Of a stretch of DNA of 64,000 nt, positions 7,491 through 16,359 are shown piece after piece. This DNA comes from a virus, in IMG/VR virus record IMGVR_UViG_3300017917_003822, positions 142,630 to 206,629 of that record, one strand, 5' to 3'. Positions within the stretch are counted from its first letter, which is position 1, and each line of letters starts with the position of its first letter. The notes under the pieces were generated by a model. It was not told the DNA's origin and made no database searches. It worked only from the letters and a program-made list of their open reading frames with translations. The position numbers were made by a program, and so were the translations under genes.

Positions 7491-7706
7491 ATGGGATTTA
7501 ATGTAAGATATCTGCCAGAACTCGAGGTTCTCCTGGAAAGAAGAAAAAAATACGAAACTGATGAGGATTTTTTATGGGCAGTTGTCGGTAAATCTGATTC
7601 GATAGCTGGACCCAATAAATCTGTGGAATATCTTGATTCAATCTACGAGAAAATAAAAAACAAGGAGAAAAAAGAAGAAATTGAAAAAAGTGGAGAAGAC
7701 GAATAA
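7491..7706 (+). CDS. Hypothetical small protein
   Basis: 71 residues, highly charged, with a Lys/Glu-rich helical tail. It starts 1 nt after the polymerase stop and overlaps the next ORF by 26 nt. No motif was recognised. Confidence 0.65.
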   Translation: MGFNVRYLPELEVLLERRKKYETDEDFLWAVVGKSDSIAGPNKSVEYLDSIYEKIKNKEKKEEIEKSGEDE

Positions 7707-7977
7707 AAACCGCAACTCTGAATCTTTCGACATATTAAGGGATTCCGAGGACTTCTCGGAATACCGACTCCTCATGATAGAGGAGGCTGATTTTATCTTA
7801 TCCAATAAGAAAGAATATATTCAGCAGAGTTTTTTACCTGACGAGATTAAAATAATTAGAATCTGTGCCCTGATTGATTTCTTTATCTTGGAGGATGAGG
7901 ATTCCATAGTTGATGATTTATTAAAGCTCGAGGAGGTTATAAGACTAAAAAAATTTATAAATTTAGGGTACCTTTAA
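7681..7977 (+). CDS. Hypothetical protein
   Basis: 98 residues from a TTG codon; an internal ATG at Met32 is an alternative start. The frame is acidic and leucine/isoleucine-rich, with a C-terminal half (IIRICALIDFFILEDEDSI) compatible with a small helical domain. It overlaps the preceding gene, which fits coupled translation. The start is uncertain and the function unknown. Confidence 0.55.
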   Translation: MKKVEKTNKNRNSESFDILRDSEDFSEYRLLMIEEADFILSNKKEYIQQSFLPDEIKIIRICALIDFFILEDEDSIVDDLLKLEEVIRLKKFINLGYL

Positions 7978-8046
7978 ATCACGCAGGAAGGTAAAACATT
8001 CTTCTGGTCTTGGATATATAGACTACTAAAATAATAAGAATAATTA

Positions 8047-9504
8047 ATGTCAGGTAGAAAAATACTTAACTTTTTCTCTTTTCTAAACGAAGCTAAAAGT
8101 GAAACCACAAAGGTTATTGTTCTAACAGGTAATGTTAAGGGTAGTAAAACCTCAAGTTCATTTATGGAGGAGTGCAAGAAAAGAGGGATTGAATGCCACG
8201 TTGTTGATGTAAACGATGCAACATTGGAAAAAGTTTATAATGGGCACCTATTAAAAACTGAGGAGGAACAAATATTAATAGAACCAAACTCAACGGTTAT
8301 AGTTCCTAGAAGAGGAGTATTAGAAAACTCCCACACAAAGCAAATACTCCTTTCTTTGGAGGAAGCTAGATATTTCACAGTAAACACTCTGGAATCTATG
8401 GAGATGTGTGAAAATAAGTTCATTACATCTCAAATAATGGAAGAACATAATTTACCCGTACCTAGATATTCCTTAGTACCAAATGAGGATTTCTTGGATA
8501 AGGCTCTTGAAGCTGTTGGAGGTAAATTCCCTGTTGTGATGAAGTTACTTTCGGGAACCCAAGGTATCGGTGTTTCTATTGTTGATTCCTATGCATCACT
8601 GAAATCTGTTTATCAAACAATCAGAAAACTTGATGACACCAATGAGATATTGATACAGGAAAAAATAGATTCCAAATCTGATCTTAGAATACAGGTTATT
8701 GTTAAGAAATTCGACCCATTAAATGCAGGTAAAGATAACTGTATAATTCTCGGATCTATGAAAAGAGAGGCGGTGGAGAAAGATTTTAGGACTAATTATT
8801 CATTAGGTGGTAAAGTTTCTAAATTTGACATTCCGGAGGAATTGGTTGATATAGCTTGCAAAGCAGCAAATGCAGTTGGATGTCATTGGTGTGGTGTTGA
8901 TATTATGATAGATGAAAAAACACAAAAACCCTATATATTGGAGGTCAATTCTTCACCAGGGACCGAGGGTATATCCAAAGCTATAGGTAAACCTATTGTT
9001 GATGATGTTCTTGATTACATTCTGGATAAAGAAAATTGGGCATTTTCAACACTTGAAGTTGGATATTTAGAAAATGTCAATATACCAGGAATTGGTTATA
9101 TGGTAGCTAAATTTGATACTGGGAATGGATCTAAATCTTGCACACTCCATGCTGATGAGGTTGAGGAGAAGGATGACAAACTTATTTGGAAAGTTGGTGA
9201 CAAAAAATTCGTAAATGATATCGTTGGATATTCTGATGCTGAAATCGGTAAGGATATTCACACTAGACCTATGATAGAGATGGACGTTGTTATCAACGGA
9301 GTTACTATACCAAAGGTAAAAATTTCGCCGACCGACAGAACTGATAAAAGTACACCATTCTTAGCAAATAGAGCTTTTATGAGAAAGGCTGGTTTAATAG
9401 TTAATCCACACAAGGCATTTGTTATTAGTGATGAGCCAGAAACTAAATACGAAGTTGGTAAAGCTAAAGGAGAACCTCATGCAGGAATAGAATTTGAAAA
9501 ATAA
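8047..9504 (+). CDS. RimK-like ATP-grasp ligase fused to RimB-type (DUF785) domain, with N-terminal packaging-like tag
   Basis: A two-domain protein of 485 residues. Residues about 20-325 form a RimK-type ATP-grasp ligase (PVVMKLLSGTQGIGVSIVDS, then CGVDIMIDE and YILEVNSSPG, the metal/ATP site). RimK adds glutamates to the C-terminus of ribosomal protein S6 in bacteria. Residues about 335-470 match the RimB/DUF785 aspartic-protease-like family, with AKFDTGNGSKSCTLHAD in place of the usual AKIDTGA-type motif. The first 17 residues (MSGRKILNFFSFLNEA) have the tag shared by several proteins here and a prohead-protease-like LNE|A site. Opposing ligase and peptidase activities in one chain suggest editing or trimming of a Glu tail. 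The substrate is unknown. Confidence 0.82.
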   Translation: MSGRKILNFFSFLNEAKSETTKVIVLTGNVKGSKTSSSFMEECKKRGIECHVVDVNDATLEKVYNGHLLKTEEEQILIEPNSTVIVPRRGVLENSHTKQILLSLEEARYFTVNTLESMEMCENKFITSQIMEEHNLPVPRYSLVPNEDFLDKALEAVGGKFPVVMKLLSGTQGIGVSIVDSYASLKSVYQTIRKLDDTNEILIQEKIDSKSDLRIQVIVKKFDPLNAGKDNCIILGSMKREAVEKDFRTNYSLGGKVSKFDIPEELVDIACKAANAVGCHWCGVDIMIDEKTQKPYILEVNSSPGTEGISKAIGKPIVDDVLDYILDKENWAFSTLEVGYLENVNIPGIGYMVAKFDTGNGSKSCTLHADEVEEKDDKLIWKVGDKKFVNDIVGYSDAEIGKDIHTRPMIEMDVVINGVTIPKVKISPTDRTDKSTPFLANRAFMRKAGLIVNPHKAFVISDEPETKYEVGKAKGEPHAGIEFEK

Positions 9505-14370: not shown

Positions 14371-14422
14371 TATCCATATAAGTGAAACAAAAAAAGAAAC
14401 TGATAGTTTAATATATAAATAT

Positions 14423-14893
14423 GGGGCTGACCAGGTATTGATTGGCAGAATTGGTTCTTTGAGATGCAGGCAGAGTTAGTATTGGAAACTCTTTAATAAC
14501 CTATACAAAGCTTTAAACGGCAAAACAAATGTTTGGGATGCTATCAACGCGTTTGGTGCTCCCGTAGCTGAAGTTGAGTACGCAGTAGCTGCTTAACCTC
14601 CGGGCCTCACTTGCCTAGAAACAGAAAGGTGAAAGAAAATCCAGATGGCTCCCTTAATAGTCTTGGCTGACCAAGAGCATCTGACCGTAATCGGTCTATA
14701 CAGGGGGCGAAAGAGTGCGGGTAGCAGGGGCAGGCCCGTCTAAAATAACTAGTTGCCGACCAGGTTGTTTGGAAGTTTGGTTCCCACATATATCAAATTT
14801 CATATTTTGCTAATTTAGAAAAATTAGCTAAGCCTGTGAATGAGTCCTTAGGGTTAACTGAGCAAGACGGCGGTTCGATTCCGCCCAGTTCCA
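14423..14893 (+). ncRNA. ssrA: Transfer-messenger RNA (tmRNA), phage-encoded
   Basis: The 5' GGGGCUG pairs with 3' CAGUUCC (14886-14892) to form a tRNA-Ala-like acceptor with a G3-U70 pair and discriminator A at 14893. CCA is not encoded. The T arm is GGCGG-TTCGATT-CCGCC (14873-14885 region). A second long-range helix joins GCAGGC (near 14466) to GCCTGT (near 14833). A tag reading frame starts at GGC 14519 (GKTN...) and ends EVEYAVAA-stop at 14596, 25 codons. GC-rich pseudoknot-like segments fill 14597-14800. tmRNA rescues stalled ribosomes and tags the nascent chain for proteolysis. The length (471 nt) and tag are longer than usual. A terminator follows. Confidence 0.93.
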
Positions 14894-14897
14894 CTGA

Positions 14898-14925
14898 AAG
14901 TTCCGGTAACACCGGAACTTTTTTA
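14898..14925 (+). terminator. tmRNA terminator
   Basis: AAGTTCCGG/CCGGAACTT stem with a TAACA loop and a T6 run, starting 5 nt after the tmRNA discriminator base. Confidence 0.9.
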
Positions 14926-15984: not shown

Positions 15985-16359
15985 ATGAGAATAGCTGTAA
16001 TTGCACACGATAACAAGAAGGCAGATATGGTTGCCTTTATTATGAAGAGGCTTGATTTCTTTTCTAAGGTTCAAATAGTTGCTACTGGAACAACCGGACA
16101 ACACATAGAGCACGCAGGCTTGGATGTTGACTTAAAAAAATCTGGACCTAAGGGAGGTGACGCACAAATAGCCAGTGAGATAGTTGAAAATAAAATTCAG
16201 GGTGTTCTGTTCTTTATAGATCCTTTAACATCACATGCTCACGAGGTTGATGTACAGATGCTTCTTAGACTGTGTAATGTTTATAATATACCAATAGCTA
16301 CTAATTATGCTACAGCTAAACTACTAGTAAAATCAATAAAAAATAACAGGGAAGAATAA
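15985..16359 (+). CDS. mgsA: Methylglyoxal synthase
   Basis: MgsA converts dihydroxyacetone phosphate to methylglyoxal and phosphate. The 124-residue protein keeps the phosphate-binding ATGTTG (residues 33-38), the SGPKGGDAQIA block with the catalytic Asp59 (Asp71 in E. coli), the FIDPLTSHAHEVDV segment (residues 77-90) with the His and Asp of the active site, and a final NIPIATNYATA. It is slightly shorter than E. coli MgsA (152 residues). It overlaps the metallophosphoesterase gene by 1 nt. A phage copy could divert triose phosphates, relieve phosphate limitation, or poison competing functions; these are inferences. Confidence 0.9.
   Translation: MRIAVIAHDNKKADMVAFIMKRLDFFSKVQIVATGTTGQHIEHAGLDVDLKKSGPKGGDAQIASEIVENKIQGVLFFIDPLTSHAHEVDVQMLLRLCNVYNIPIATNYATAKLLVKSIKNNREE

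Follow-up and report, generated by a model that had tools for sequence, protein, structure and literature searches.

The locus described here, a tmRNA gene (ssrA) carried by a virus, raises two connected questions, namely whether a phage can supply ribosome rescue of its own, and to which protease the chains tagged in this way would be handed. The gene occupies positions 14423-14893 on the plus strand, from the mature 5' end to the discriminator A73, within a stretch of 64 kb that was analysed as a whole (hereafter the window) and that represents positions 142630-206629 of a 270,629-bp IMG/VR virus record (G000). The record has T4-type phage content, including a topoisomerase, a thymidylate synthase, glycosyltransferases and a prohead protease, and since the records of relatives reach 343-434 kb, it is probably incomplete. 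The nearest cellular relatives of the SmpB protein encoded in the same record are nearly all from Bacteroidota, which makes a Bacteroidota host likely, and we regard the phage as a jumbo phage that probably infects this group.

A genuine one-piece tmRNA

A one-piece tmRNA was called by ARAGORN at 14423-14894 of the window, and the Rfam model RF00023 matches it from end to end with 59.3 bits (E=1.1e-20), above the gathering cut-off of 47 bits. The identity of the element, which had originally been predicted from the letters of the sequence, thus passes the covariance-model check, and the two programs agree. The tmRNAs of relatives score 71-111 bits with the same model.

The individual parts of the molecule, all on the plus strand, are likewise recognisable. 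The acceptor stem (GGGGCUG at 14423-14429, CAGUUCC at 14886-14892) contains the G3-U70 pair and, next to it, another G-U as pair four, and it is followed inwards by a canonical T arm (GGCGG-UUCGAUU-CCGCC, 14869-14885). Together with the second long-range helix, P2, which was located from the sequence and the Rfam alignment (GCAGGC 14466-14471, GCCUGU 14832-14837), these features could be placed at exact coordinates, as predicted. Directly after the 5' strand of P2, the pseudoknot PK1 (14472-14506) was read from the sequence as two interleaved helices, AGAGU 14472-14476 with ACUCU 14488-14492 and GUAUUGG 14479-14485 with CCUAUAC 14500-14506, the latter including one U-U mismatch; the pattern is kept in relatives. 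A P5-like helix around the pseudoknot region (14601-14738; CGGGCCU 14601-14607, AGGCCCG 14732-14738) was found by the same means as P2, and the PK4 hairpin, with the strands GCUAAUUU and AAAUUAGC (14809-14828), shows paired changes in relatives when these are compared by eye. The predicted adjoining terminator was found as an intrinsic terminator at 14896-14922, the only one returned by a search that averages 0.8 on shuffled sequence. Minimum free energy folding of the whole RNA was uninformative (z=-1.07), as expected for a pseudoknotted molecule.

Two further features of the gene ends call for comment. A73 at 14893 is directly followed by CUG, so that CCA is not encoded, as had been noted at the outset; this does not set the phage gene apart, however, as the same is usual in Bacteroidota, where only three of the 28 tmRNAs examined end in ACCA, and the missing CCA is ruled out as a special trait. 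Immediately 5' of the gene, at 14414-14421, lies TATAAATA, a perfect match to the late promoter box of T4, of which the plus strand of the window holds four copies. A role as a T4-type late promoter is doubtful, as it is too close to the mature 5' end and is not conserved in relatives.

The structure was examined across related phages, which were gathered via a neighbouring gene for an RNA-binding protein (50 records, 20 of them with a tmRNA above the cut-off), while searches with a DNA pattern for the 3' part of the tmRNA and by the DUF6734 neighbour returned nothing or one relative. Two scans of IMG/VR with PK1/PK4 RNA patterns added many further relatives. In a test set of 17 distinct constructs of acceptor stem and T arm, 99.5% of the cells pair, and eight of the 12 pairs show changes on both sides. 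The covariation score of 0.568 compares with 0.131 after shuffling and was reached by none of 500 shuffles, and slid controls score far below the real alignment. G3-U70 is invariant (17/17), while acceptor pairs 4-7 vary freely. The pairing, the double changes and the shuffles together exclude a chance origin of the structure, and the element is confirmed, as far as sequence and covariation can do so, as a genuine one-piece phage tmRNA.

Other RNA genes are scarce around it. ARAGORN found no other tRNA-type gene within the 64-kb window, and the sole one elsewhere in the record (L012:13116-13194) is tRNA-Tyr-like with an odd ATA anticodon and possibly a false call. Unlike the window phage, the relatives L309 and L304 have numerous tRNA genes arrayed next to their tmRNA. 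At L281 (about 7609-8193, minus strand) and L286 (328-554), a group I intron (RF00028, 98-100 bits) splits the T-loop region of the phage tmRNA, as is known from intron-bearing tmRNAs of bacteria. Shortly downstream of the window's tmRNA, at 15985-16359, lies a methylglyoxal synthase gene (NF003559, 161 bits), and a gene that resembles it lies near SmpB in relative G041 (L127:540-974).

A long tag with a bacterial head and tail

The tag frame (14519-14596, plus strand) starts at the resume codon GGC (14519-14521), which the Rfam alignment places at gene position 97, within the range of 94-100 seen in Bacteroidota tmRNAs. The 25 codons of GKTNVWDAINAFGAPVAEVEYAVAA run from 14519 to 14593 and are closed by a UAA stop at 14594-14596; both site and length are kept in relatives. 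The original reading of a 25-codon tag of the form GKTN...EVEYAVAA was thus right. The eight-residue tag EVEYAVAA called by ARAGORN is a mis-set start inside the true frame, and was rejected because conservation covers both the resume site behind PK1 and the residues at the N-terminal end of the tag. A resume codon three codons upstream (ALNGKTN...) was rejected as well, as it would fall nearly on PK1 and most families lack an equivalent.

When compared with host tags of the GENNYALAA type, the phage tag has a host-like head, GKTN, and a host-like tail, YAVAA, and the two are separated by a phage-specific insert of 16 codons, VWDAINAFGAPVAEVE (14531-14578), which is kept in the tag family. The likeness to the Bacteroidota-type tag of 9-10 residues is limited to these two ends, so that the early description of a host-like start on a much longer tag holds. 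The idea that the AVAA end might steer tagged peptides differently, on the other hand, is speculative. Tags ending in -AVAA are standard elsewhere, in the alphaproteobacteria. Anything special about the system would lie in the conserved insert and in the phage genes for ClpP and, in relatives, Hsp100, rather than in this end.

Among 87 related phage records with a readable tag, counted by hand, 85 have tags of 21-34 codons and two have 14; this sample was picked by similarity to the RNA of the clade and is representative of that clade, not of phages in general. Every tag in the first 21 records was 21-31 codons long. In the tmRNAs of 30 Bacteroidota genomes, by comparison, the 26 tags plausibly read by ARAGORN are 9-10 residues long; two further calls are apparently mis-set, and no tag was obtained from another two loci. 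The tag of the window phage is about 2.5 times as long as the host tag, and the long tag is a trait of the clade. The two relatives with 14 codons (L284, L320) share the tag ANVDYSTEY[FY]AVAA, which resembles a natural deletion of the insert.

The phage tags fall mainly into two families. The family of the window phage, termed NVW, follows the pattern G[KEN]xxVW[DE]xIN.FG[AT]P...A[VIY]AA, and the FED family follows ...S[ST][FMW]TFEDAM[AS]FVGA[DE]YAVAA. An aromatic-acidic start and, further on, an A/S-F occur in both, a likeness that may reflect common descent or chance. Selection at the amino-acid level is clear in the FED family, where independent pairs give a pN/pS of 0.16 for the set with 24 codons (p=4e-5) and of 0.27 for that with 23 codons (p=6e-4); a small set with 25 codons gave no significant value. 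In the NVW family it is only suggested: independent pairs give a pN/pS of 0.82, which is not significant (p=0.35), although the means over all pairs are 0.33 for pS and 0.19 for pN. The most conserved codons of this family (V, W, I, N, F, G) show no synonymous variation, which, in combination with the non-significant ratio, leaves room for a constraint on this stretch at the RNA level.

Searches for the tag beyond tmRNA genes were negative. The tag motif was not found in other proteins of the same phage record, and tblastn of the tags against published phage records gave no match, which is weak evidence of absence given the insensitivity of queries of 24-25 residues. An amphipathic helix as the role of the insert was dropped, as the hydrophobic moment was no better than that of permuted tags in 12 of 13 tags.

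Phage-encoded SmpB and ClpP

The claim that the tmRNA gives the phage ribosome rescue of its own is strengthened by partner genes in the same record, outside the window. A gene for SmpB without internal stop lies at G000:228732-229148 (PF01668, E=1.4e-45), 22 kb past the right end of the window, and its product scores above the cut-off of the NCBIfam equivalog TIGR00086 (156.6 versus 119.1 bits); with it, rescue would be served by a tmRNA and an SmpB of the phage itself. Nine SmpBs of phages group together, with weak support and separately from those of Bacteroidota (78/78), which counts against a recent acquisition. A gene for ClpP (PF00574) lies at G000:217825-218349, 11 kb past the window. 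Both genes are present in 12 of 14 searched records with an NVW tag, and the two that have neither (G101, G107) are probably fragments; many long-tag relatives also lack both in their often fragmentary records. In three relatives (G001, G088, G104) ClpP is located directly 5' of SmpB with a gap of 34-40 nt, and in G001 the pair is followed by an M28-type peptidase. At L095:1940-2491, beside a phage SmpB, an HD-domain protein resembles a small ppGpp hydrolase, with a Pfam match below the cut-off.

Proposed pathway and alternative explanations

We consider it very likely that these components form a working phage trans-translation system, with tagged chains going most likely to a Clp machine that includes the phage ClpP. 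A host enzyme would add CCA to the phage tmRNA, which would be charged with alanine through G3-U70 and bound by the phage's own SmpB. The loaded tmRNA-SmpB would enter ribosomes that have stalled and extend their nascent chain by GKTNVWDAINAFGAPVAEVEYAVAA, and the ribosome would be released at UAA. The tag retains a small hydrophobic C-terminal degron and a head of bacterial type, with a conserved, phage-specific middle, and the tagged chains would most likely be degraded by a Clp machine with the phage ClpP, joined by a phage Hsp100 unfoldase in relatives with longer records. Such a route would presumably benefit the phage.

It is also plausible, if somewhat short of probable, that the tmRNA does no more than top up the host system, with chains going to host ClpXP and tag length drifting almost neutrally in a relaxed lineage. 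tmRNA genes are no rarity in phages, being reported in 402 of 18,146 phage genomes (PMC9004378), and 10-codon tags are kept by other huge phages (LR756500, Lak phages). Differences in tag length among the families of the clade, including the two relatives at 14 codons, and the weak pN/pS signal in the window's own family fit drift as well. The explanation is harder to reconcile with long tags in all but two of the 87 records, with the conservation of FED amino acids against synonymous change, and with the joint occurrence of SmpB and ClpP with the NVW tag.

A tentative possibility is that the insert is read by a phage Clp machine of Hsp100 and ClpP, so that chains would be diverted from the host protease. 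Of the five longest records with an NVW tag, four (G092, G097, G103, G105) contain an Hsp100 gene (AAA_2, ClpC/ClpA-like), and all four also carry SmpB and ClpP. The encoded protein combines two AAA modules with a weak UVR-type middle and lacks an N domain. In five records with another tag type (G007, G008, G010, G020, G045), the Hsp100 gene precedes the tmRNA by about 2-4 kb and has the same orientation. A precedent exists in Mesoplasma florum, where a longer SsrA tag is matched to a particular protease, the organism's own Lon (PMC9382460), although this is a cellular system that uses Lon rather than Clp and is likened here by the pairing of tag and protease, not by sequence. Several observations weaken the case. 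A profile search of the records found no Hsp100 in that of the window phage (G000) or in G001, G002, G087, G088, G096, G104 and G109. In G092 the gene lies about 130 kb beyond SmpB, so that the records G000, G002 and G096 probably end before it, an argument weakened by spacings of 80-184 kb in other relatives. Furthermore, the ClpP-contact loop (LGF-like) is recognisable in G092 and G103, but is only SGF in G097 and G105; in the records with the nearby Hsp100, genes on the opposite strand, including a weakly matched M42-type peptidase, lie between it and the tmRNA, and an apparent insertion divides the Hsp100 frame of G020. The broader proposal of a jumbo-phage lineage with a self-contained tag-and-destroy pathway (tmRNA, SmpB, ClpP and an Hsp100 lacking the N domain), in which the insert would be a private signal to the phage protease, is attractive but, in our view, less likely than not.

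The phage ClpP might instead be a head-maturation protease unrelated to the tmRNA. Some phages use ClpP-like proteases for this purpose, and the head-maturation models NF045540 and NF045542 match the protein at 63-68 bits. The best match is nevertheless far ahead of these, being the cellular model NF011091 (228.6 bits, yet below the cut-off of that model), a separate T4-type prohead protease is encoded at G000:46149-46442, and ClpP directly precedes SmpB in some relatives, which makes a role in head maturation unlikely. Finally, the tmRNA could be imagined as a host-derived remnant that has lost its rescue function, or as a decoy titrating SmpB. The DS6A phage molecule comprises little beyond the tRNA-like domain, and a similar molecule inhibits tmRNA, perhaps via SmpB titration (PMC4131195). 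Such a fate is highly improbable, however, for an RNA that has a full mRNA-like domain, pseudoknots, an intact tag frame closed by a stop and strongly covarying stems, and whose phage encodes an SmpB.

Relation to known systems and significance

The tmRNA of the window phage resembles the one-piece tmRNA of Bacteroidota in G3-U70, the T arm, P2, PK1, PK4 and the usually unencoded CCA, as well as in a resume codon near position 95-100 and a C-terminal degron of small hydrophobic residues. It differs by its 25-codon tag, as opposed to 9-10, by its phage-specific insert and by a lower RF00023 score (59 bits versus 98-160 for host tmRNAs).

Phage tmRNA as such and SmpB in huge phages were known already. 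An earlier list comprised ten phages with tmRNA (PMC4131195), and the combination of tmRNA and SmpB has been reported in huge phages (Al-Shayeb et al., 2020; PMC7162821), which share both genes and a large genome with the window phage; neither tag sequences nor Clp genes are mentioned in the main text of that study. The tags of uncultured huge phages that we examined have 10 codons (LR756500) and 24 codons (LR756504, DNVNSFEQSILNELFAPVEMAVAA). Overall, the commonest tag length is 10 residues (PMC11915505). A 25-codon tag, ATDTDATVTDAEIEAFFAEEAAALV, is also found in the Bxz1-type tmRNA of mycobacteriophage Tonenili, which is compared by its tmRNA alone and differs in its actinobacterial host and unrelated tag sequence. 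Moraphages (PMC12619734) and bS21 phages (PMC9723584) are likewise predicted to infect Bacteroidota and are reported to carry Clp genes and a prohead protease, features in which they resemble the window phage; the main texts of both reports mention no tmRNA. A literature search of partial coverage found no description of the tag families or of the set of tmRNA, SmpB, ClpP and Hsp100, and it is the conserved long tag and this gene set that are new.

Phage tmRNAs have usually been recorded as single genes of uncertain use. The occurrence of the tag, SmpB, ClpP and Hsp100 together in one lineage provides a testable case for protein quality control supplied by a virus, for which the 14-codon relatives offer natural deletion controls, and degrons that would be read by one protease only may naturally be sought among the conserved long tags.
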